In this document: in pieces, positions 27,724 to 46,765 of the stretch | Numbering within the stretch: position 1 is the stretch's first letter | Layout: each line of letters opens with the position of its first letter | From: Candidatus Omnitrophota bacterium | GTDB taxonomy: Bacteria; Omnitrophota; Gorgyraeia; Zapsychrales; Fredricksoniimonadaceae | Direction of reading: 5' to 3' | DNA: 50,451 nucleotides | Assembly (NCBI GenBank): GCA_015233145.1 | Contig: JADFYI010000009.1 | Coordinates: 1-50,451, forward strand | The notes under the pieces: model-generated | What the model saw: the letters and a program-made list of their open reading frames with translations, nothing else | Told to the model about the DNA's origin: nothing | The model's database searches: none | Position numbers and translations under genes: made by a program

Positions 27724-27762
27724 AGGTTTTTGCGCAGGGACTCAATTTATCGTGGGGGCGCT

Positions 27763-27825
27763 ATTTATTGTAGGGGTTTTTAATATGTTCGTAGGGGCGC
27801 CATTTATGGCGCCCAGGAAGTAGCG
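27763..27825 (+). repeat. 63-nt direct repeat, copy A
   Basis: Identical over 63 nt to 28491-28553, on the other side of the transposase gene. It contains one 24-nt REP hairpin (27791-27814). The upstream flank 27747-27768 and the downstream flank 27827-27856 hold degenerate units of the form GTAGGNNTGCCATTTAT. Confidence 0.9.
27791..27814 (+). repeat. REP hairpin 1
   Basis: 24-nt element: GTAGGGG, CGCCAT, TT, ATGGCG, CCC. The stem GGGCGCCAT/ATGGCGCCC is perfect; the unpaired GTAG head marks orientation. It is plus-oriented, upstream of the transposase. Confidence 0.88.
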
Positions 27826-27856
27826 ACGCCATTTATCGTAGGAATGCCATTTATTC

Positions 27857-27880
27857 GTAGGGGCGCCATTTATGGCGCCC
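27857..27880 (+). repeat. REP hairpin 2
   Basis: Identical 24-nt element in the same orientation, ending 14 nt before the transposase ATG. Confidence 0.88.
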
Positions 27881-27894
27881 AAAAAAGAAATAAT

Positions 27895-28395
27895 ATGAAT
27901 ATTGTGAATAAATCCCCATCCAGAAAATCAACGCGTTTAAAGCAGTACGATTATTCTACCGCAGGGGAGTATTTTATTACGATTTGCGTTCAAGATGGGC
28001 GATGCTGTCTGGGGGGTGTTTCTGATGACATTTTTGTTCCGAGTAAAGTGGGACTCATTGTGGGGTTGATTTGGGATGAAACGTTCAATGTTTTCCGTGA
28101 TGTCACGCAAACAGGTCCGATTGTTATTATGCCAAATCATATTCATGCTTGTGTTGAACTGCTGGCAGATGGCGGTATATCCCTTGGAAAAATTGTGCGT
28201 TATTTTAAAGCGTTGAGCGTACGACAGGTGAGGATACAGGCGGATTCGGTTTTTGCGTGGCAACGAAATTACTATGATCATGTGATTAGAAACGAGAAGG
28301 ATCGTCATCGAGTATACGAATATATCGAAAACAATCCTTTGCAGTGGGCATTAGATGCCGAGAATCCTGAAGTTGTGGCATGCCGGGCGCCATAA
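27895..28395 (+). CDS. REP-associated tyrosine transposase (RAYT, Y1/HUH family)
   Basis: I start at ATG 27895; the earlier ATG 27844 lies within repeat DNA. The 166-residue product has the RAYT opening (RKSTRLKQYDYSTAGEYF), the metal-binding HUH motif His82-Ile83-His84 in MPNHIHAC, and the catalytic Tyr at 126 or 127 in NYYDHVIRN, followed by the ENNPLQW tail. These enzymes nick and join single-stranded DNA at REP hairpins and are single-copy, domesticated relatives of IS200/IS605 TnpA. REP hairpins flank the gene on both sides, and the TAA stop is part of the inverted downstream hairpin. It splits comEA from comEC. Confidence 0.93.
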   Translation: MNIVNKSPSRKSTRLKQYDYSTAGEYFITICVQDGRCCLGGVSDDIFVPSKVGLIVGLIWDETFNVFRDVTQTGPIVIMPNHIHACVELLADGGISLGKIVRYFKALSVRQVRIQADSVFAWQRNYYDHVIRNEKDRHRVYEYIENNPLQWALDAENPEVVACRAP

Positions 28396-28408
28396 ATGGC
28401 GCCCCTAC
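28385..28408 (-). repeat. REP hairpin 3 (inverted), containing the RAYT stop codon
   Basis: Exact reverse complement of REP 1 and 2, ending in CCCCTAC on the plus strand. The transposase stop codon (28393-28395) lies in its loop region, so the gene is bounded by an inverted pair. Confidence 0.88.
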
Positions 28409-28518
28409 ACAAGGCGTTAATTCGTAGGAATCCCTATGCGTAGGGGGTTCTTAATTTGTGCGTAGGCGCACCATTTATCGTAGGGATGCCATTTATTGTA
28501 GGGGTTTTTAATATGTTC
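28409..28518. repeat. Degenerate REP remnants
   Basis: Several broken GTAGG-type units occur (for example near 28423, 28440, 28460 and 28480), some joined to CCATTTAT. No gene is visible here. They look like decayed copies of the same element. Confidence 0.6.
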
Positions 28519-28553
28519 GTAGGGGCGCCATTTATGGCGCCCAGGAAGTAGCG
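28491..28553 (+). repeat. 63-nt direct repeat, copy B
   Basis: Identical to copy A at 27763-27825. The 728-nt offset brackets the transposase gene. Confidence 0.9.
28519..28542 (+). repeat. REP hairpin 4
   Basis: Plus-oriented 24-nt element identical to REP 1, inside direct repeat copy B. Confidence 0.88.
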
Positions 28554-28603
28554 GCGCAATTTGCGCTAATCTCCGAAAGGCATTTCGTCTAGGAAATGTA
28601 TTT

Positions 28604-34492: not shown

Positions 34493-35740
34493 ATGGACGC
34501 AGGGCTTAAAGAAAAGATTTCTTCGCTCCCGTTGACGAGCGGCGTATATCTCATGAAAGACGCCGGCGGCAACGTGATTTATGTGGGAAAGGCTGTTTCC
34601 CTGCGCCGCCGCGTGCAATCGTATTTCCGCGGAAAAACCCATAACGTCAAAACCGACCTTCTTGTCTCGAACATCACGGATGTTGATTATATCTCCACTC
34701 ACAGCGAGGCCGAGGCGCTTATCCTTGAGGCCGCGCTCGTTAAGCAGTATCAGCCCCGGTATAATATCGAGCTTAAGGATGGCAAGTCGTATCCTTTTAT
34801 TGAGATTACCGGTGAAGAGTTTCCGCGCATTTCGGTTGTGCGCATTGCCTCGCCTGAACAAAGAAAGTCCGGATGCTTTTATTTCGGGCCTTATGTGGAT
34901 GCCGCTCTCATTCGTGAGGCCCTGACCATCATCCGTAAAATTTTCCCCTACAGGACCTGCGACCCTTTTCCGAGGAAATCGTGCTTGTATTATTCGCTGG
35001 GGCTGTGCGACGCCCCGTGCATTGGCGAGATTTCGCCGCAGGATTATCATCGCAACATCAAAAGCATTGTCATGATCCTCGAGGGGCATAAAGACGAGCT
35101 TTACAAGACCCTTAAAGAAGAAATGGAATACCTGGCCAGTATCAAGGAATTTGAGGCAGCAGCTAACTTGCGCGACCAGCTGCGCGCCATAGGCGCCCTT
35201 TATTCATCCACGGGGGAGCTCAACTATTTTAAAGAAGCAGAGCAGTTGGAGCGCATTTTGACCCTCAAAAGGATGCCGGACAGAATTGAGTGCATTGATA
35301 TTTCCACCATCATGGGAGAACTTTCAGTCGGGTCTCTGGTGTCGTTTTTTAACGGCAAGCCTGACAAGGCGAATTACCGGCGTTTTCGCATTAAAGAAGT
35401 CAAGGGCATTGATGATGTCAGGATGGTGGCCGAGGTGGTGCGCCGGCGTTACGGCCGGTTAAAGCGCGAGGCTAAGGCCTTTCCTGATCTTATTGTGATT
35501 GATGGCGGCTTGGGACAGCTTGGCGCGGCTGCTGCTGAATTAAAGGCTTTGGGGTGCGATATCCCGGTTATTTCTCTGGCCAAGCGCGAAGAAGAGGTTT
35601 TTGTCCCTGGCAAGCGCGCCTCTATTCTTTTATCCAAAGACTCTCTGGCCCTTAAATTACTCCAGCGCGTGCGCGATGAAGCGCATCGCTTTGCCATCTC
35701 CTACCACCGCAAGCTCAGAGACAAAAAGGTTTTTGAGTAG
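34493..35740 (+). CDS. uvrC: Excinuclease UvrC lacking the C-terminal HhH region
   Basis: I use ATG 34493, since UvrC proteins begin a few residues before LKEKISSLPLTSGVYLM; TTG 34463 and ATG 34469 are open upstream. The 415-residue product has the GIY-YIG nuclease (about 10-95, GVYLMKD and IYVGKA), a four-Cys-containing segment (TCDPFPRKSCLYYSLGLCDAPC split across 153-178) that suggests an iron-sulfur or zinc site, a UVR helix pair (about 200-232), and the RNase H-like nuclease with DIS, VIDGG and DEAHR. It stops right after that domain, about 180 residues short of standard UvrC, losing the tandem HhH DNA-binding part. It makes both incisions in nucleotide excision repair. Confidence 0.88.
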   Translation: MDAGLKEKISSLPLTSGVYLMKDAGGNVIYVGKAVSLRRRVQSYFRGKTHNVKTDLLVSNITDVDYISTHSEAEALILEAALVKQYQPRYNIELKDGKSYPFIEITGEEFPRISVVRIASPEQRKSGCFYFGPYVDAALIREALTIIRKIFPYRTCDPFPRKSCLYYSLGLCDAPCIGEISPQDYHRNIKSIVMILEGHKDELYKTLKEEMEYLASIKEFEAAANLRDQLRAIGALYSSTGELNYFKEAEQLERILTLKRMPDRIECIDISTIMGELSVGSLVSFFNGKPDKANYRRFRIKEVKGIDDVRMVAEVVRRRYGRLKREAKAFPDLIVIDGGLGQLGAAAAELKALGCDIPVISLAKREEEVFVPGKRASILLSKDSLALKLLQRVRDEAHRFAISYHRKLRDKKVFE

Positions 35741-35921: not shown

Positions 35922-38900
35922 ATGCGTAACGGGTTTTTCACAAAATGGGTTTCTTTTGTGACGCTTTTAACATTTATTGTTTCAAGCATGGCGCCTGTTT
36001 ATGCCCAGGGGCTTTCCCTGGGCACCGGGGCAGGGGTTTTACCCGAGCCTGGAACCATGGTGTCCTTAAGCCAGAGCTTTAACCCGCCGATATTAAAAGG
36101 CGTCAAGGTTTACGCCAACAATCCGCTTAAATTTGATTTTATCCTGGATAAAGGGGATAACCCCACAGCTCTCAGCGCTGAATCTGAAAAACTCATCCGT
36201 TATTTCCTTGCTTCGCTCACAGTCCCTGAAAAAGACCTGTGGGTCAACCTTTCTCCTTATGAAAAAGACCGTATCATCCCCGACGCCTTTGGCCAGACTG
36301 AAATGGGCCGTGACCTGTTGGCTGAAGATTATATCCTTAAACAAATTACGGCTTCAGCACTTTACCCCCAGGACGCGCTGGGCCAGGGCTTCTGGAAAAA
36401 GGTTTACGCGAGGGCCTATGAGAAATACGGCACGACCGATATTCCTGTGGATACGTTTAACAAGGTGTGGATAGTCCCTGCGAAAGCTGTTGTATATGAG
36501 CGGTCAGGAGGCTCTTCTGGCGCTGATAAATCGGCAGTCGCTTATGTTGTGGAAAGCAAATTAAAGGTCATGCTCGAGAGCGATTATCTTGCGCAAGAAA
36601 AAAACGTAGGGGCTCAATTCATTGAGCCCGGTATGCATGGATCCATCGAACCCGGTATCCCGGGTGCGATGAATCGCACCCCTACGCAAGAATTCATCAA
36701 AGAAATTCTCCGCGAAATCGTGATCCCTGCGCTTGAAACAGAAGTGAATACGGGTAAGAATTTTGCTCCATTGCGCCAGGTTTACAATTCCCTGATCCTG
36801 GCCGCCTGGTATAAAAAGAAAATCAAGGAAAGCCTTTTGACCTCTGTGTATGTTGACCAAAAAAAATTGCAGGGCGTCAATGTCGAAGACCCTGCCATTA
36901 CGCAAAAAATCTGGGCGCAATACGTTGAGGCCTTTAAAAAGGGGGCCTTTAATTTTATCAAGGAAGAGCAGGATGAGCTCACGAATGAAATGATCCCCAG
37001 AAAGTATTTTTCAGGCGGGATGGATTTTGCCCAGGGCCTGGCCGCGGCCGTTCAATTTAAGACCGACGCGGCAACACTTCCGTTGGCTGCTTCTGACAGG
37101 GACATGATTGTTGAGGCTGATATTTCAACGCCGGATATGGCGCAAAGCGCAATACTGGATGCTCCGAACAAGGCTCCCAAAGCCTTGCGAAGAGCCCGGG
37201 CAGTCAACATCATGGATGAGGCGGATTTTGATAATTTCTGGAAAAGTATTTTGGATAAAGAGATTGATCAAGCTCCCAAGTCCTTGGCCGCGGAACTGAA
37301 GAAACTTCGTTTTGAGAAGGGAGATGGCACGCCCGCAGAGCCGGTGTTTAACGACACCCAGGCCGAGGCCATGTCGCTCAAGACGGATGAAATTTATGAA
37401 AGGCTTTTGTTTTTAAGAGAAATGCTGGAGTTTCGCCATGCCGATGGCTGGGGCTTGGCCGCTTCTAAGGCCGTGGATCTTTCATTAAGTTATCCATGGG
37501 GCGGGGAGTCTGCTGTCCGCAGGGAAATGAAAGCGTTGAGCAGTCCGGAGGCACTGGATACCTATTTAACGACACTGGCCAGCCCCACGGAAGAGGCGGG
37601 TGCGGCGTCTGAACAGCCGTCTGCCGTGGTATGGAAAGAGCCTGGTTTTTCAGCTGAGGAAGAACGCACGTTTAATGATGTCTTATCTAAAATAAAAGAC
37701 ATTGAGGGGAACCTGACAGCATTGGCCGGGCAGTTGGAACGCATCACTGTTAACGGCCAGGCCATTTCAGATAAGAAGGCCGAGAGACTGGCCAAGAGGG
37801 TTTTAGGAAACGGCAAAGTGGCTTACTCTAAGATGATGTTTTTCAGGGATGTTTTAGGATGGAAAAAGGCAAATTCAGGAAAAAGATTTTTTACATTGAT
37901 CCAGGCTTTGAATATTGCTATGTGGCCGGGAGAGGCCAGGCTGGAAGAAGTCAGAAAAGAGCTCGATGTGCTTCTTTCGTCATCTCTATTCGGCCCAGGG
38001 CAAATAACCTCGATGATTATCGTCAAGGATTTTACAGCCCAGTATATGGAAGAACTTCTCAAAACAGCTCAGAAAATGGGCATTAATGACGGGGCCAAGA
38101 TTTACCAGTTGGTTCTTAATACTGAAAAAGCCAGAGAAGTGCCTCAGCTGGCCGCAGTGCTTGATGAGATGGATTTAAGGGGAACGGCAGCGCGTCCACA
38201 GGACATTACCCTGCAAGCTGAAGGTAGCTCTGTGGATATTTCTGATCCAAAGAGTTTTGATGATTTCTTTGCAACCGTATGGGATGAGAACCTGGAGCTG
38301 GTGGCTTCTTCGTTTGACGGGAATGGGCCGCAGCAGGCTTCCAGCGTCATGAGATTTATTGATCTTGTTCGCCGTGATTATGGGATTGAGGTCAAAGAGA
38401 GTCAAGACCCGTTTGTAACGCTGGATAACATTTTAACGAGCGCGACTCTTTATGATCAATGGAGGAGAGACCCTGACAGCGTAGCAACAACAGAAATTCT
38501 TTTGTTGGCTGACCTGACCAGGGAAGCCCGCTCATTGCCTTATGCCCAGCTGAAAGCCGTTGAAAAGGAAAATATCAGGAAACTGAACCATCTGGTTTTG
38601 GAAAAAGCTTACCCTAATCGAATTTTACGCAGCCCGTCAATCAGGGGTGAGAAAATGCTTGCCTATTTGATGCGTCTGCAATTTAAAGGTAAAAATGTTT
38701 TTACGGCAACCGCGGCCAAAAGGATGGCAAGCATCAAAGACGTGTTTGGCAGCCTTGTATTCCTTAAGCGGGCCATCGAGGTGAAAGACTTGAGCGGCCA
38801 TGATTTATTTTCAACATTGTCTCCTTTAATGCACATTGTCCAAAGCAATCTCGCGGGAAAACAAGACGAGATGATTAATGAAATAGAACAGCTTACGCGC

Positions 38901-41078
38901 ATCACAGAAGATACGCCGGAAGGGAAACGGCAGTTTTTTGACCCGAATCACATCATGTTGATAGTCGCCAAAAGAAAAATGCCGTTGAACGAGAAGCTTC
39001 AAGGGATTGATGAGTTAAGAAAAATGAAGATATTCACCCCCTCCCAGATCAGTTTAATACTCTTCAGCTCTACGCCGGATGCGGTAGCTTTTGCCCGGGA
39101 ATTGAACCGTGAGGAGGCTGGCGGAAGGAAAATTTTAAACGGAACCCAGATTGTGGACATTATCCACCGGAATGTTTTTCGTGATCCCCAAAAGCGCCGG
39201 GAGTATATCGAGCATTTGAGGTCAAAAATTTCTGTTATCCCTGAGGTTTTGGAGGCGCGCAGCCTTGATATTGTTGAGGATGAGCTCCCTGATTATTGGC
39301 CCAAGTTGTCGCAGGTGGATCCCGGGGCCTTTGCCTCACAGCTTTTAAGGCTCAAATATGGTAATGAAACTATTTTTACCGAAGAGACTGCTGGAAAAAT
39401 AGTGGGTCGTGAGAGTGCTTATCAACGAGTGGCGTTCTTGCGAAAACTTTTGGCCTATCAGACGTCAGACCAGGAGTCGGTTTTTTCTCTCCAGCAGGCC
39501 AGTATCATGGCCGCAGATTATCCCGTAAGGGACGAGGATGTTATTTTGGAAAGATTGGAATGGCTGGTGGGACAGGAAAGGGCTGATGGCAAACCAGCAT
39601 TGACGGCAACGGATGTTCGCTATGTTTTGAATAATCCGGGACTTTTTTCATTGGAAAAGTTCAAAATGATTTGGGCCCGCCTCGCTTCGACGGATGTCCA
39701 GGCCAGAAAAATTCTTAATTATATGCTGAGGCCCGAGAAGTACCGTGATTTTATAAAAACCTGGATAACTGGCCCCATGGGCGAATGGCCGTATCTTGCG
39801 GCAAGGGCAAAGTATGTGCTTGTGGCCAGAAGTAAAATAAGCACAGAACAGGTGAAGTTTATGATGCAGGTTCTTTTTCCTGATCTTTCCGAAGACTTTA
39901 ACCGCTATGCCGACCGCTCTGTTGCCGAAGACCGGGAACTTGTCAAGACTTTGGATGAGAATACGCCTGCGCCGGATCAGGTGATTAAACAGCTTTTGAC
40001 AAGTTTTGATAACAACGTGAAGGAGACAACGCTTAAATTTTTGTTGCAATGGCTCAAGGACAAATACCTGTATATGGCAACTTCGATCGGAGAAAAAGAG
40101 GGCGAACTTGTCTTAAACCCTGACGGGGCCGATGCTTTTAACGCTCGTATTCTTCAATATGATTGGGCCAGGCCTGAGGCAGGATTGGAAAATTTGAAAT
40201 CTAATCTTAGGGATATTTATTTTGAGCGTTCTGAGTATGTGCATATCCAAAGTTTGACGCCGCGTCTAGCCCGTTTGTATAGAAGGGCTGGTGTTCTTCA
40301 GAGAATATATCTGAAAAATCATCCGGACAGGGTTCCTAAAGCGGGAAGATTTTCTAAGCCGGTGATTAGAAGGCTTTTAGATTCAGGTTATTCTAACGCT
40401 GAAATTTCCGCGGCATTATTTTTCCGCATGCCTTCCATGGATGCGCCGACTTCCGGCGCAGGAGAAAGAAAAACAACAAATCTGTACAGTGTGAAAGCCG
40501 CTCCTGAAAAAAAGGCCTACGAGATTTCTGACGGCACTTCTTTTGAGGATGATAACGGTGTTACGCAGGTAAAAATTATTCTTCCCGGGAACAAGGTGTT
40601 CTGGGTTTATGCCAATTCCTTACAGGAGGCCATGGCGTTATACCTTAGAGACTACCCTGAAAGCCGGGAAGTATGGCAGGCCATTGGCCGGGGTGATGGG
40701 CGTTATACAGTGACTTTTAAGAATAAAAAAGAGGAATTTGTGGTCTCTGATTTGAGAGATATTTTAACCATGGACCTGGACTATAACACCATGTTGATTG
40801 TCGCGGACAGCTCCATGGCCCCGGAAGAGAAGAAAGGTGGTATTGACTTTAATTCCGATCGCATGAACCTGGAAATGCGGGGAGACGGAAACGCTGTGAT
40901 GAAGTTTAATATGGACCCGGGACTCATGGAAAAGTTTAAATCTGCGCCGGGGTTTGTGCCGGTCATTATTAATATTTACCCCTTAAATAATTTGCAGAAG
41001 TTTTTGGGGGTTAATGAGGATTTAAAGAAGGGCTCTGTGGCGTGGAGTGCTGTAAAAGGAGTATCGAAAGCGGCATAG
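35922..41078 (+). CDS. Giant exported modular protein 1
   Basis: Start ATG 35922 has AAAGGAAAG before it; the longer frame upstream is not coding. The 1718-residue protein has a signal peptide (cleavage near Ala28), then a conserved N domain (about 30-390) almost identical in large parts to that of the next gene, including NPPILKGVKVYANNPLKFDF and LWVNLSPYEKDRIIPDAFGQ. The middle consists of diverged helical modules beginning near residues 428, 585, 771 and 1115, each with an LxRLxF...VFT...A..M pattern and a FLRxLL helix. The end has a GGIDF block (1639-1643) and an APGFVPVIINIYPLNN segment. Residues 229-255 are encoded by an inverted pair of REP hairpins. No enzymatic motif is seen; surface or periplasmic scaffold is a guess. 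Confidence 0.9.
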   Translation: MRNGFFTKWVSFVTLLTFIVSSMAPVYAQGLSLGTGAGVLPEPGTMVSLSQSFNPPILKGVKVYANNPLKFDFILDKGDNPTALSAESEKLIRYFLASLTVPEKDLWVNLSPYEKDRIIPDAFGQTEMGRDLLAEDYILKQITASALYPQDALGQGFWKKVYARAYEKYGTTDIPVDTFNKVWIVPAKAVVYERSGGSSGADKSAVAYVVESKLKVMLESDYLAQEKNVGAQFIEPGMHGSIEPGIPGAMNRTPTQEFIKEILREIVIPALETEVNTGKNFAPLRQVYNSLILAAWYKKKIKESLLTSVYVDQKKLQGVNVEDPAITQKIWAQYVEAFKKGAFNFIKEEQDELTNEMIPRKYFSGGMDFAQGLAAAVQFKTDAATLPLAASDRDMIVEADISTPDMAQSAILDAPNKAPKALRRARAVNIMDEADFDNFWKSILDKEIDQAPKSLAAELKKLRFEKGDGTPAEPVFNDTQAEAMSLKTDEIYERLLFLREMLEFRHADGWGLAASKAVDLSLSYPWGGESAVRREMKALSSPEALDTYLTTLASPTEEAGAASEQPSAVVWKEPGFSAEEERTFNDVLSKIKDIEGNLTALAGQLERITVNGQAISDKKAERLAKRVLGNGKVAYSKMMFFRDVLGWKKANSGKRFFTLIQALNIAMWPGEARLEEVRKELDVLLSSSLFGPGQITSMIIVKDFTAQYMEELLKTAQKMGINDGAKIYQLVLNTEKAREVPQLAAVLDEMDLRGTAARPQDITLQAEGSSVDISDPKSFDDFFATVWDENLELVASSFDGNGPQQASSVMRFIDLVRRDYGIEVKESQDPFVTLDNILTSATLYDQWRRDPDSVATTEILLLADLTREARSLPYAQLKAVEKENIRKLNHLVLEKAYPNRILRSPSIRGEKMLAYLMRLQFKGKNVFTATAAKRMASIKDVFGSLVFLKRAIEVKDLSGHDLFSTLSPLMHIVQSNLAGKQDEMINEIEQLTRITEDTPEGKRQFFDPNHIMLIVAKRKMPLNEKLQGIDELRKMKIFTPSQISLILFSSTPDAVAFARELNREEAGGRKILNGTQIVDIIHRNVFRDPQKRREYIEHLRSKISVIPEVLEARSLDIVEDELPDYWPKLSQVDPGAFASQLLRLKYGNETIFTEETAGKIVGRESAYQRVAFLRKLLAYQTSDQESVFSLQQASIMAADYPVRDEDVILERLEWLVGQERADGKPALTATDVRYVLNNPGLFSLEKFKMIWARLASTDVQARKILNYMLRPEKYRDFIKTWITGPMGEWPYLAARAKYVLVARSKISTEQVKFMMQVLFPDLSEDFNRYADRSVAEDRELVKTLDENTPAPDQVIKQLLTSFDNNVKETTLKFLLQWLKDKYLYMATSIGEKEGELVLNPDGADAFNARILQYDWARPEAGLENLKSNLRDIYFERSEYVHIQSLTPRLARLYRRAGVLQRIYLKNHPDRVPKAGRFSKPVIRRLLDSGYSNAEISAALFFRMPSMDAPTSGAGERKTTNLYSVKAAPEKKAYEISDGTSFEDDNGVTQVKIILPGNKVFWVYANSLQEAMALYLRDYPESREVWQAIGRGDGRYTVTFKNKKEEFVVSDLRDILTMDLDYNTMLIVADSSMAPEEKKGGIDFNSDRMNLEMRGDGNAVMKFNMDPGLMEKFKSAPGFVPVIINIYPLNNLQKFLGVNEDLKKGSVAWSAVKGVSKAA
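36606..36629 (+). repeat. REP hairpin inside the giant gene (left)
   Basis: 24 nt: GTAGGGG, CTCAAT, TC, ATTGAG, CCC. Same frame as the RAYT-linked hairpins, with a different but fully complementary stem. It is translated in frame. Confidence 0.85.
36662..36685 (-). repeat. REP hairpin inside the giant gene (right, inverted)
   Basis: Read on the minus strand: GTAGGGG, TGCGAT, TC, ATCGCA, CCC. It pairs with the left copy as an inverted couple around a 32-nt spacer that holds ATGGATCCAT and two CCCGGTAT repeats. Confidence 0.85.
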
Positions 41079-41095: not shown

Positions 41096-44000
41096 ATGCG
41101 AAATTGGCTTTTCACAAAATGGGTTTCTTTTGTGACGCTTTTGACATTTATTGTTTCAGGCGCAGCACCCGCCTATGCCCAGGGGCTTTCTTTGGGCACC
41201 GGGGCAGGGGTTTTGCCTGAGCCAGGCACCATGGTGTCCTTAAGCCAGCCGTTTAACCCACCGATACTTAAAGGCATCAAGGTTTACGCCAATAACCCGC
41301 TTAAATTTGATTTTATTCTGGATAAGGGGGGTGAGGCGTCATCCTTGAAAACCGAGTCGGAAAAGCTTATCCGGTATTTTCTCGCCTCGCTCACTGTCCC
41401 TGAAAAAGACCTGTGGGTCAACCTTTCTCCCTATGAAAAAGACCGCATCATCCCCGACGCCTTTGGCCAGACAGAAATGGGCCGCGACCTGTTGGCTGAG
41501 GATTATATCCTTAAACAAATCACGGCCTCAGCACTTTACCCCCAGGACGCGCTGGGCCAGAGCTTCTGGAAAAAAGTTTATGCCAGGGCTTATGAGAAAT
41601 ACGGGACGACGGACATACCAGTTGATACCTTTAATAAAGTGTGGATAGTGCCTGCGAAAGCTGTCGTTTTTGAACGACAGCTTGAGCAGCCCCGCGAAGC
41701 CGACGCGAGTTTTTCCCAACTTGACAGGAAAAACGAAAGCGTCCTGGCGGAGCGGGGCCAGAAAGCTGTTGCTTATGTTGTGGAAAGCAAATTAAAGGTC
41801 ATGTTGGAAAGCGATTATCTTGCGCAAGAAAAAAACGTAAATCGTGCCCCTACGCAAGAAATCGCCAAAGATATTCTCCGCGAAGTTGTTATTCCTGCCC
41901 TTGAAACCGAAGTGAATACCGGCAAAAATTTCTCCCAGCTGCGCCAGGTCTATAACTCCATTATTCTCGCGGCATGGTACAAACGGAAAATCAAAGAGAG
42001 CCTTTTGTCCTCGGTATATGTTGATCAAAAAAAGGTGCAGGGCATCAACATCGAGGATTCGGAAATAACACAAAAGATCTGGCAGCAATACGTCGATGCC
42101 TTTAAAAAGGGAGCCTTTAATTTTATCAAAGAAGAACAGGATGAATTGAGCAGTGAAATGATCCCCAGGAAATATTTTTCGGGTGGAGCTGATTTTGCCC
42201 AGACGCTTCCTGCGGTCATTTCATTTACTGATAATTTTTCCAGCCTTCCGGAACTGTCTTCAGACCAGGCCATGATGACCGTCAGTGTCAATTTGGTTTC
42301 ATCATTAAAATTAGAATCCGAAGAAGGAATCGAAAGCGCCCGGGAAGTTGTTTCGGCCAATGATAATTTTGATGTGCTGGCCGGGCAAGTGGCTGGAATC
42401 CCGTTTAATGAAACGAACAGGGAAAAATTGGAAAATATTTTAATGGATATCGAGATGCGCGGACAGCCTGTTTTCACGGATGAGGCTGCTGCGAAAATGG
42501 TGGATAAGGCCAGGAGTAAATTGTATCCCAAGCTTGTTTTCCTGAAGGAGCTTTTAGAGTTTCAGGATGACAAGGGCCGTCCGCTCTTTTCTTTTCCCGA
42601 TGCTATCCGGATTGCCCGCGACAAGGTTGCGGACATGAAAGACGATCTTATGTTTGACATCTACACCTTGCTCAAAGTCGGCATTGAGGAGGGGGCGCAA
42701 TTCTTTAACGGAAACCAGATCCTGTATATTATTTTTGGCGCGGATGAGTTTGGGGCACAGCTTCAATTGATTGATGAATTGCGGCAGGACAAGAATTTTA
42801 CTTCGGATGACATTACACGTATTATTCGCGCCAGCGGAAGCTCTGACAAAAAAAGAAGCCTTGTTGCCCGTTGGAAAAAGCTTATGGCCGATAGTGGAGT
42901 GACTCCGTTACTTGGCGGGGCAGATATCGCCAAGTTTATTGACAAGCACCTGGATTTGCCTGAAAAAGAGAGCGATCTTAAGAAGGCTGTTACGAAAATA
43001 CAGGAAAAAATCAAAGAAGCGGCCGCATTATCAGCGGCCCAGGAGCCGTTAGGGACCCTTGATTTGGATATCAAGCGCGTGGCCACTGCCGACATGGCAA
43101 AGTTTGCCCAGCGATTGAACGATCTTGATGGGGATGAAGTGATCTCGCAATTATCGAGGTTGAAGCTGGCGGAAAAAGCTGTTTTTACGGATGAGCAGGC
43201 CGCGGCCCTGGCCCAGACAAGGGTACACCTTGGCAAGGGGATCGCTGAGCGGGTTTTATTCCTTCATTATGCCGTTCAAGAGTCTTTACGCGCCGGGAGG
43301 GACATTGAGAATATTTCAGAGCTGGTCGATTTGTCCATAAGTTATTCTTTAAAAAGAGAAGAGCAGGTTCGTGAAGAAATTTCCTGGCTTTTAAATTTTA
43401 AAGCGCCTCAAGAAGAAGGCCTTTTCTTTGAAATGTATGACATCGCGTTTATTATCCGGACAGCGGTGCCAACAGAGGAAAAGAAAACCCAGGCTGCTTA
43501 TCTTTTATCTGTGCCGGCCAGAGACGGGGTGGGGCGTTTCTTTACGCATGTCCAGGTTGCGCTTATGCTGGCGAATCAGGAAAGTCTGGTTGATAAAAAG
43601 AAGCTGGTTAGTTATGCGTTTAGCTTGTCAGCTTATAATGGCCAGCCGTTATTCAATAATAATGAGGTCACAAAGATTGTCAGAAGTCCGATACCGGGGG
43701 CAGAGAAGATGTCTTTGATTGCTGATTTGCATGACAAAAAGGCCTCTTTTGGGGGAGAGGATGTCCCTTTCTTGAGCGGGGCTGTTATTGCCGAGTTGCT
43801 GCTGCATCGATTTGACCGCGTGCCCCCCCAGGCGCAGGAAAGCCTGATCGACGAGCACAGGCAGGAATTCTTGAATACCAAGGCTCCGATGGGGACGCTA
43901 AAAGCCAGGGCTGTGCGGGCGGCTGTGGCTGCGTTTGGGAGAGTGGATATCATGAATGAAGATAAGTTCCTTCAGTTTCAGTCAGGTCTTAAAGGACTTT

Positions 44001-46765
44001 CGAAAGTTGAAGTTGCTGTGCAATTGCGGAGGTTAAGGTTTAACAGCCGTTATCTTTTTACCGAGGAACAGGCTGTTGCCATGTCTACAAGAAACGCAGC
44101 AGGCCGTGCGGGGTTTTTACGGGAACTTCTTAAGTGGCATGGAGAGCTTAAGCGCCCTGTGACAAACGAGGTCTTATCGACGATAATGAGGGTGGCCAAT
44201 TACTATTCTCCGTTGAGAGGCTCTGATTTCATTGAAGAAATGCATTGGTTTTTAGAGCAGGGGTTTACCGTTGCGCAGCTGGTTTACATTATTAATAAAA
44301 CGACAAGTTTTGCAGAAAAAAAGAAGCTGTATGAGTTTTTGCGTGAATTTAAAAAACCGGATGGGAAAGGAGATTTTTTTAGCCGCACAGAAATGGCCAT
44401 TATTTTGGATGCCGGCACACCGAAAGAAGGAAAAATTTACTGGGTTGGAAGATTGAAAGAAGAAAAAACGGCCGGCGCCAACGCAAGGCCTTTGCTCAGC
44501 GGTGAGGAAATCTCGGTTTTGATGACGAGGCGCTTTGACCTTAAAACGCCTGAGGAACAGCGTGAAATTATAGATAATTTTGTCAAGGCCGACACCCTGG
44601 CGCGGGGATCGCCCGATGATATTGCTGCCAGGGGGCTTGAGCTGACGCCTGTGGATATGATGGACGCTCAAAGTTTTAACAAATTCCTGGAAGCAATGGA
44701 TGCCATAAAAAACTATTCTTCAGCAACTGCAGCGCAGCTCAGGCGCTTGAAATTTCAAGGCCAGGATGCTTTTAGTGAGAGTGAAATCAAAGCAATGACT
44801 GAACGGGGAGAAAAAAGAAACAAGGTGATGCGGGGCCTCACGCAAAGGGTTCGTGCGTTTCAATACATTGTTCAGGAGTACCTTGGTTCCGGCCGGGAAA
44901 TATCCGACATCGTGCAGCTGGCGGATTTTGCCCGGGAATACCCCCTGGCAGAAGACACTGATATCGATGTTCGGCAGGAAACAAGAGAACTTTTCACGTT
45001 TAAAATATCGGGGCAGGAGGCGTTGTTTTTCAGCCTTCCCCAGATTCGCAGCCTTATCAGGAAGCTTGTGCCTCTCGATGAGATGCAGGGTCAAATTCGT
45101 TATTTATTGTCCTTTCCTGCGCAAGGCCGTAAGGGTTATTTCTTCAGCCCGGCAGATATTTCTGACCTGATTGATAAAAAGGACATATTTATCAGCCAGA
45201 AAGACATGCTTGAATATTTGGTCCAGCAGCGTGACGACGAAGGCCGTTCCGTGTTTACGGGCCATCAGGTCAAGACCATTTTAAAAGGCGATATGCCTCG
45301 CGACACAAAAACAAAAATGCTGGGGGAATTATTGAGCTTGAAGACAAAAGATAACAATCACCTTTTGGCCGGCGTAGACATCGCTCTTTTTATCCTCAAG
45401 TATCGTCACATCAGCCTGGAGTTGTTTCAAGGGATATGGAGGAATTTTGAAGACACGAATGTCACCGCGGGGCAAGTTATCGATGATATCGTAGCCCCCG
45501 AAGAAACAAGGCAGCTGTTGAATACATGGTTAACGGGAGAGACAAGAAATTTCACAGAACCGGTCTGGCGGGCAAGGCACGCTTTGGTTTTCGGACGGGG
45601 TAATAACGGCTCTGTAACGTCCGTCACGACACAGAGTATTAAGTTTTTGGCAGGGGCCCTTTTCCCTGATGAGAAGGCGTACTTTGAAAAAGCCATTGAT
45701 GAGGCTGTGCGAAAAGACCAGCAGTTAATCAAAGGATTAAGCCCTGACATGCCGCCGGATGATGTGGTCATAAAACAATTGCACAGCAGTCTTGATCCTG
45801 ATGTCCGCAAGCAGCTTTCTTCGCTTCTTCTGTCCTGGCTTAAAGACACTCTTTCGGCTGCGCATGAACGTTTATCGAAAGACTCGCGCACCGACCTTTC
45901 GAAATCGTGGGATGCCCTGGACAAGTATATTGAGAAATATGAGTGGTCCCGGGATAACGGAGGCCTTGAAAATTTAAAACGTAATATATACATCATGATC
46001 AGTAATCTAAGGTATACCACGTGGTTGTCTGAATTATCACCGCGCAGCAGGCAAATTATTTCGGCAACTTATTATTTAAAAAAAGATCCTTCAAGAACAA
46101 ATGAAGAGGTTAACCGCATATTGCGTAAGAAATTCAGCATCCAGGAAATTGAAACAGCCCGGGAAGGCAGTCCTGTTTCTTTGGATAAGACATTTTCAGA
46201 TGAGGAGCATAACCTTTATGATGTTTTGGGCCAGGAGTCACACAACGACATGGGCTGGGTCGAAGATGATGGCAATGAGGCTGTTTCAGAAAGCCGCGCC
46301 CCCACACAAGTCACAATCATTCTTATGGGCAAAACATATACTGTCCCGGCAGAAACAATTTCCGAAGCGTTTATCAAATTGGCACAAACAGGAGATGCTG
46401 ACGCTAAAGAAAACCTGCGGCGGGTTTTTGAGCCGGATGGCCTGTTCACCGCCCATCTGAATGGGGGCGAGCCTTTTGACCTGACAGATTTTAATGTTTT
46501 GGAAACCCCTTTATCTGAAGACAATAATACTTTGGTTATTCGAGGCCCGGATGATGCCATGGCCGCGGATAAGGGTGGTATTGATTTTAACTCCAGCCGG
46601 ATGACCCTCGAAACGCAGGGAAGCGCTGGTGCCATGGCATTTAACATTGATCCTGCCATCATGGAAGAGCTAAGGTCGGCGCCAGGCTTTGTACCGGTTG
46701 TGATCGGCATCCAGCCTTTAAACAGCCTTTCCGAATTCTTGTCTGTCAACCCCGCTGCCCGGTAA
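41096..46765 (+). CDS. Giant exported modular protein 2 (tandem paralogue)
   Basis: ATG 41096 has AAGGAG 8 nt upstream and lies 17 nt after the first giant gene, so the two are co-transcribed. The 1889-residue protein has the same signal peptide (cleavage near Ala28) and N domain, four modules starting near residues 421, 659, 949 and 1186 (spacing about 240-290), a C-terminal helical part, and the GGIDF block at 1827-1831 with APGFVPVVIGIQPLNS. Modules start with a VDxMDxxxF motif, then RLRF..xxxFTEEQAxAM, then FLREL. Two N-domain sites differ from the paralogue: an extra palindromic insertion at residues 188-225 and only a scar of the REP pair near residue 248. Function unknown. Confidence 0.9.
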   Translation: MRNWLFTKWVSFVTLLTFIVSGAAPAYAQGLSLGTGAGVLPEPGTMVSLSQPFNPPILKGIKVYANNPLKFDFILDKGGEASSLKTESEKLIRYFLASLTVPEKDLWVNLSPYEKDRIIPDAFGQTEMGRDLLAEDYILKQITASALYPQDALGQSFWKKVYARAYEKYGTTDIPVDTFNKVWIVPAKAVVFERQLEQPREADASFSQLDRKNESVLAERGQKAVAYVVESKLKVMLESDYLAQEKNVNRAPTQEIAKDILREVVIPALETEVNTGKNFSQLRQVYNSIILAAWYKRKIKESLLSSVYVDQKKVQGINIEDSEITQKIWQQYVDAFKKGAFNFIKEEQDELSSEMIPRKYFSGGADFAQTLPAVISFTDNFSSLPELSSDQAMMTVSVNLVSSLKLESEEGIESAREVVSANDNFDVLAGQVAGIPFNETNREKLENILMDIEMRGQPVFTDEAAAKMVDKARSKLYPKLVFLKELLEFQDDKGRPLFSFPDAIRIARDKVADMKDDLMFDIYTLLKVGIEEGAQFFNGNQILYIIFGADEFGAQLQLIDELRQDKNFTSDDITRIIRASGSSDKKRSLVARWKKLMADSGVTPLLGGADIAKFIDKHLDLPEKESDLKKAVTKIQEKIKEAAALSAAQEPLGTLDLDIKRVATADMAKFAQRLNDLDGDEVISQLSRLKLAEKAVFTDEQAAALAQTRVHLGKGIAERVLFLHYAVQESLRAGRDIENISELVDLSISYSLKREEQVREEISWLLNFKAPQEEGLFFEMYDIAFIIRTAVPTEEKKTQAAYLLSVPARDGVGRFFTHVQVALMLANQESLVDKKKLVSYAFSLSAYNGQPLFNNNEVTKIVRSPIPGAEKMSLIADLHDKKASFGGEDVPFLSGAVIAELLLHRFDRVPPQAQESLIDEHRQEFLNTKAPMGTLKARAVRAAVAAFGRVDIMNEDKFLQFQSGLKGLSKVEVAVQLRRLRFNSRYLFTEEQAVAMSTRNAAGRAGFLRELLKWHGELKRPVTNEVLSTIMRVANYYSPLRGSDFIEEMHWFLEQGFTVAQLVYIINKTTSFAEKKKLYEFLREFKKPDGKGDFFSRTEMAIILDAGTPKEGKIYWVGRLKEEKTAGANARPLLSGEEISVLMTRRFDLKTPEEQREIIDNFVKADTLARGSPDDIAARGLELTPVDMMDAQSFNKFLEAMDAIKNYSSATAAQLRRLKFQGQDAFSESEIKAMTERGEKRNKVMRGLTQRVRAFQYIVQEYLGSGREISDIVQLADFAREYPLAEDTDIDVRQETRELFTFKISGQEALFFSLPQIRSLIRKLVPLDEMQGQIRYLLSFPAQGRKGYFFSPADISDLIDKKDIFISQKDMLEYLVQQRDDEGRSVFTGHQVKTILKGDMPRDTKTKMLGELLSLKTKDNNHLLAGVDIALFILKYRHISLELFQGIWRNFEDTNVTAGQVIDDIVAPEETRQLLNTWLTGETRNFTEPVWRARHALVFGRGNNGSVTSVTTQSIKFLAGALFPDEKAYFEKAIDEAVRKDQQLIKGLSPDMPPDDVVIKQLHSSLDPDVRKQLSSLLLSWLKDTLSAAHERLSKDSRTDLSKSWDALDKYIEKYEWSRDNGGLENLKRNIYIMISNLRYTTWLSELSPRSRQIISATYYLKKDPSRTNEEVNRILRKKFSIQEIETAREGSPVSLDKTFSDEEHNLYDVLGQESHNDMGWVEDDGNEAVSESRAPTQVTIILMGKTYTVPAETISEAFIKLAQTGDADAKENLRRVFEPDGLFTAHLNGGEPFDLTDFNVLETPLSEDNNTLVIRGPDDAMAADKGGIDFNSSRMTLETQGSAGAMAFNIDPAIMEELRSAPGFVPVVIGIQPLNSLSEFLSVNPAAR
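41657..41771 (+). repeat. In-frame palindromic insertion in giant gene 2
   Basis: Absent from the paralogue. AAAGCTGTCG and AAAGCTGTTG border the segment as near-direct repeats. Inside, AAGCTGTCGTT/AACGACAGCTT form an 11-bp hairpin (41658-41683), and GCCCCGC (41689-41695) pairs with GCGGGGC (41752-41758), enclosing GACGC..TTTTTCC/GGAAAAAC..GCGTC. Confidence 0.7.
41837..41853 (-). repeat. REP half-element scar in giant gene 2
   Basis: GTAAATCGTGCCCCTAC occupies the position of the REP pair of giant gene 1. It keeps the ATCG..CCCCTAC half of the right element and GTA of the left one, as if the centre were deleted in frame. Confidence 0.6.

Follow-up and report, generated by a model that had tools for sequence, protein, structure and literature searches.

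GTAG-tagged REPs within genes have been catalogued in several species, with many cases, and in more than half of the intragenic inserts the REPs form dimers or groups, coding for 20-30 residues; linkers were suggested to tolerate in-frame REPs, and related genes can have them at nearly the same position, as does recB in two Xanthomonas species (Di Nocera et al. 2013, PMC3733652). The Rickettsia palindromic elements (Ogata 2000 and 2002), as they are described in PMC10969869, are in-frame palindromic repeats of ~150 bp that occur in unrelated genes and are kept as an extra peptide, which is conserved. Giant ORFs are known in Omnitrophota, and an adhesive role has been proposed for them in a paper that does not mention repeats (PMC10066038). 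A literature search that covered mainly open-access papers yielded no paper on Omnitrophota REPs or on REP insertion in linkers.

The stretch considered here, referred to as the window, is 50,451 nucleotides of contig JADFYI010000009.1 from a Candidatus Omnitrophota bacterium (assembly GCA_015233145.1). An initial annotation of it had pointed to a pair of hairpins translated inside a giant secreted protein and had regarded such a location as unusual for a REP of the RAYT (REP-associated tyrosine transposase) type. With the 2013 catalogue at hand, and a second in-frame pair in the same genome described below, the principle of in-frame GTAG REPs is already known; what is new, in that it was found in no paper searched, is that a single linker of an amplified family has been used repeatedly by several palindromes unrelated to each other.

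Six exact GTAGGGG-N14-CCC units are present in the window as a whole, where the chance expectation is 0.07, and none of 100 shuffles attained six. Two of the units are in the giant gene. Unit 1 is on the forward strand at 36606-36629 and consists of GTAG followed by GGGCTCAAT-TC-ATTGAGCCC, read in codon phase 0 (GTA GGG ...), and unit 2, GTAG followed by GGGTGCGAT-TC-ATCGCACCC, is on the reverse strand at 36662-36685. Both have perfect 9-bp stems and a TC loop, they are mutually inverted, and the reading frame is open across both. The 32-nt forward-strand spacer between them (36630-36661) contains a third, half REP, CATCGAACCC, at 36644-36653, together with a duplicated motif, CCCGGTAT. The REPIN-like layout of two inverted units with a short in-frame spacer is thus as first annotated, and the gain of about 21 residues relative to the paralogous giant gene (41096-46765, forward strand) is matched by a measured net difference of 63 nt. 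RNA folding gives the 80-nt element as one long hairpin at -43.4 kcal/mol (z -5.5).

The pattern has 32 matches genome-wide, 31 with perfect stems and one chance-like, against six for a reversed control pattern. GTAG, a 9-bp stem and a 2-nt loop, the structure of the GTAG REP superfamily, are found in 31 of the 32 matches, and the 31 copies are dispersed over many contigs, mostly between genes with ~9 clearly within them, which contradicts the possibility, allowed for at the outset, that the genome has no other copies. Every stem variant in the genome is fully paired and the stems covary, so that, as had been proposed, the shape is kept rather than the sequence. The variable part of the stem had been put at 6 bp; the stems do vary and still pair, but genome-wide their centre is nearly fixed as ATTYAT (sometimes ATTGAT), leaving a variable part of 4 bp. 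The assignment of the window hairpins to multicopy GTAG-class REPs of RAYT type, translated in frame, is supported by these features.

Further inverted REP pairs in the genome differ from the 36606-36685 pair in stems, unit order and spacers, and the exact pair recurs solely in a paralogue on contig C4 (L061), which carries an identical copy of unit 2 and has unit 1 interrupted by a 21-nt hairpin within its loop. A second in-frame pair is in a histidine kinase gene (G000:C15:15805-15870; L009, L010) with the opposite unit order; it lies after the N box and before the conserved stretch that follows, and an aligned kinase of the window does not have the segment. Three N-terminal in-frame REPs in other genes (L003, L016, L029) were discounted, as translation probably begins downstream of them.

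The RAYT candidate is an ORF at 27898-28395 on the forward strand with a Y1_Tnp match above the Pfam cut-off; against NCBIfam REP_Tyr_transpos it scores 59 bits, under the cut-off of 80. Its HIH motif and RNYYDHVIRNEKD region we take to be RAYT-like, from the sequence and general knowledge. It is the sole Y1_Tnp match found in this genome, which is 80% complete, and the four remaining REPs of the window flank it, two upstream at 27791-27814 and, directly before its start, at 27857-27880 (both forward), one overlapping its 3′ end at 28385-28408 (reverse), and one downstream at 28519-28542 (forward). The candidate transposase noted earlier, 8 kb from the hairpins, is one flanked by the same repeats. 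The stem of the overlapping REP provides the TAA stop codon of the RAYT (28385-28395). Many degenerate REP-like pieces are also found around the gene, at 27740-27860 and 28410-28580, for instance CGTAGGAATGCCATTTATT and GTAGGGGTTTTTAATATGTTC, the latter repeated. In two related genomes, G016, which has two RAYTs, and G024, the RAYTs are 43-51% identical and each is flanked by its own genome's REP type, GTAGGGGNNGACCTTGTGTCNNCC; the protein linkers of both genomes carry this type as well. GTAG-class insertions would then be RAYT-driven.

The giant gene (35922-41078, forward strand) encodes a secreted-type protein with a signal peptide, and its start is likely the ATG at 35922, giving ~1718 aa, rather than the TTG at 35601. 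Pfam and NCBIfam gave no match for either giant protein. The conserved N-terminal module, the signal peptide plus ~350 residues (35922-37034, forward), is common to ~20-50 proteins in many Omnitrophota genomes. It was found in 52 of the 55 genomes searched, where named records are Candidatus Omnitrophota, with ~22 loci in this genome (31 matches, some of them split) and up to ~50 in relatives. A structural model of the module has a mean pLDDT of 75, and comparison with PDB folds gave no significant match (best E 0.16, probability 0.10). One paralogue of the module (G000:C35:13609-14422, L072) has internal stops in the matching stretch and is probably a decaying gene.

Alignment of the family shows conserved blocks up to ESDYLA and again from REVVIPALE, and between them a hypervariable linker of 18-73 residues. 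In the giant gene this linker (LAQEKN...KEIL; 36588-36710, forward) has 41 residues, modelled mostly with low confidence. The insert corresponds to residues 229-255, of which 231-245 have pLDDT values under 50. The close paralogues on C29, C35 and C52 do not have the segment, and in the tree the three REP-bearing paralogues (window 36606, C4 and window 41840) group at 97% support, nested among REP-less relatives. Together these argue that the segment is an insertion relative to the paralogues, one that predates the duplications of the three REP-bearing genes, and the alternative first raised, that it is an old conserved part of the protein, is not upheld. The paralogous giant gene of the window had served as the empty reference in the initial annotation. 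Relative to the giant gene it lacks 63 nt between GTA and AATCG, but it was rejected as a clean empty site because one arm of unit 2, AATCGTGCCCCTAC, remains at 41840-41853 (reverse strand); to judge from its sequence it looks like a deletion derivative. A search for an exact empty site in an orthologue found none, and in REP-less paralogues the linker has itself diverged.

Small in-frame hairpins, often of ~21 nt, are found in or near the REP loop in several genomes (L061, at G000:C4:19741-20661, and L198, L170 and L163). Such cases of a palindrome within a palindrome suggest insertion or template switching at hairpin tips.

The linker is a place of palindromes well beyond this gene. The density of inverted repeats with arms of at least 8 is 10.6 per kb in linkers and 0.99 per kb over the remainder of the module, and 47 of 133 distinct linkers hold one where codon shuffling gives 4.0. 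GTAG hairpins of at least four types are in the linkers of 26 members, and other linkers hold ATTCCYGCGAAAGCGGGAATC, GAGCGAAGCGAAG, CCCTCCCC/GGGGAGGG or GGGGACATGTCCCC palindromes. On the tree, parsimony requires 15 changes to explain the GTAG hairpins and 29 when palindromes of any kind are counted, gains and losses not being distinguished. In three genomes the linker zones make up ~0.2-0.4% of the genome yet hold 9-27% of the repeats, figures counted from search matches and exact repeat copies per genome which are inflated as a measure of events, many linker REPs having been inherited through gene duplication. The same reading applies to the individual genomes, with seven of 31 REPs of this genome in linkers, spread over five of them, 16 of 59 in the linker zones of G016 (expected 0.16) and, in G021, seven of 79 copies of the non-GTAG palindrome ATTCCCGCGAAAGCGGGAATC (expected 0.30). 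The 79 exact copies make ATTCCCGCGAAAGCGGGAATC a high-copy palindrome in G021; it is present also in G025 and G031, and its translation in the linker is VIPAKAGIQ. Two further hotspots in the module are the KGDN..AES loop, hit in 16 members, and the VEDPAI loop, hit in nine. Palindromes, GTAGAGACGCAAAATTTTGCGTCTCTAC repeats included, are concentrated in the KGDNPTALSAES and VEDPAI loops, which correspond to ~36150-36190 and 36870-36900 of the window. As far as the sequences can tell, the same linker repeatedly collects palindromes in a family amplified across the phylum, a point absent from the initial annotation.

Linker GTAGGGG is in phase 0 in 21 cases, in phase 1 in four and never in phase 2, because there TAG would be read as a stop codon. 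CCCCTAC is in phase 1 in all 19 of its cases, a uniformity that partly reflects shared ancestry.

The explanation that probably holds is that a GTAG REP cluster was inserted in the module linker and tolerated as a loop, as one of many such events in a permissive landing place. Before the three REP-bearing paralogues diverged from their common ancestor, a cluster of two intact inverted units and a half unit would have entered the N-terminal module at its linker, most likely inserted by the RAYT, which as an HUH enzyme acts on hairpin DNA. Retention would have required avoidance only of the strongly barred phase, with TAG as a codon, and the linker loop would have accommodated the ~20 extra residues; the window paralogue would subsequently have lost 63 nt of the cluster. 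The same linker and the two other loops would have received GTAG REPs and unrelated palindromes in other paralogues and genomes.

What counts against passive tolerance is that the stems in one group of paralogues are kept far better than expected of neutral passengers. Across nine paralogues, drawn from three genomes, that share a 25-nt spacing, divergence at third codon positions is 5.6% in the stems, 45% in the spacer and 44% in the module (160 sites), though the nine were picked for recognisable REPs, an ascertainment that favours preserved stems. Draws of 12 module sites never came down to the stem value, and of 144 stem pairs 140 still pair. The linker unit types of G016 are also not a random sample of that genome's pool (p ~0.001, with classes tallied by hand). 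Stem conservation and non-random units hint at maintenance at the DNA level, which is a lead. It is possible, and put forward tentatively, that REP hairpins are long-term residents of the coding linker, kept as DNA or RNA structure through deep divergence of the paralogues by selection or REP-specific homogenisation even though they are translated. The narrower proposal that they are kept for a function within the gene, such as mRNA protection, ribosome pausing between folded parts or provision of binding or recombination sites, with the peptide incidental, draws on the same observations and on the strong fold of the 80-nt element; we consider it rather doubtful, given the sampling, the many paralogues without any linker palindrome, the filling of the same place by unrelated palindromes and the existence of decayed REPs (L181, L170 and the window paralogue).

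Spread of linker REPs chiefly through duplication and gene conversion among paralogues, with few insertions, would account for sister paralogues that are alike in position, phase and spacing (C38 and C4, and the 49-nt-offset pairs in G016). It is nonetheless unlikely, since GTAG subfamilies differ and non-GTAG palindromes occur across clades and genomes, this genome has two separate REP-bearing clades beside REP-free sisters, the changes on the tree are numerous, and conversion of the stems without the 25-nt spacer between them needs very short tracts. RAYTs and their IS200/IS605 relatives use short target motifs, and with recurrence at one place this could be taken to favour a specific DNA target of the RAYT within the linker. 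Such targeting is improbable and was set aside, as palindromes of non-RAYT kind occupy the same loops: in G021, where the search gave no RAYT, non-GTAG palindromes recur in the linker likewise, palindromes strike two more loops of the module, and this genome has REPs at intergenic sites and in the histidine kinase loop. The unrelated palindromes, the other loops and the kinase pair argue for loops that tolerate extra residues, with the module a permissive landing place and not a specific target, as what would account for the recurrence. That the segment is instead an old, ordinary part of the protein with palindromes arising by chance is scarcely credible. In its favour, linker variability extends to every member of the family, and parts of the segment recur in the two closest paralogues. 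It is contradicted by the hairpins matching exactly a genomic repeat of 31 copies whose stems are perfect, by the absence of the segment from close paralogues and by a palindrome excess far over shuffles.

Earlier intragenic REPs were single curiosities across unrelated genes, and here many comparable cases are in one linker. Filled, partly deleted and REP-less states, several repeat classes and tens of paralogues per genome permit measurement of palindrome entry into coding DNA, of the phases that survive, of decay and of selection on hairpins. If the structures are indeed maintained, the loops of the family would be a phylum-wide habitat for palindromic repeats. In annotation, linker peptides such as VGAQFIEP, RADTRSAPT and VIPAKAGIQ need to be recognized as translated repeats, not conserved protein motifs.

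Several known palindromes resemble those of the linker in part. The ATTCCCGCGAAAGCGGGAATC repeat of G021, G025 and G031 has the form of the Neisseria dRS3-like palindromes, ATTCCC-N8-GGGAAT, but it is in Omnitrophota, is translated in the same linker and is absent from the window genome. The inverted pair with its spacer, and a RAYT flanked by the same REPs, are as in REPINs and RAYTs (Bertels and Rainey 2011, PMC3116915), from which the present element, known from sequence, differs in that the stems of its two units are unlike, the spacer is not constant (here 32 nt, including a half REP) and it is translated. In-frame insertion in a protein gene is shared with the Rickettsia palindromic elements, which, by their description in PMC10969869, are set apart from 24-nt GTAG units that accompany a RAYT and are concentrated in the loops of one family. 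Closest are the GTAG-tagged REPs of PMC3733652, with the same tag, short stem, small loop, inverted dimers, RAYT association and in-frame insertion; in contrast to those cases, the host here is a multicopy family in which non-GTAG palindromes as well as several GTAG subfamilies have struck one linker repeatedly, across many of its paralogues and in many genomes.
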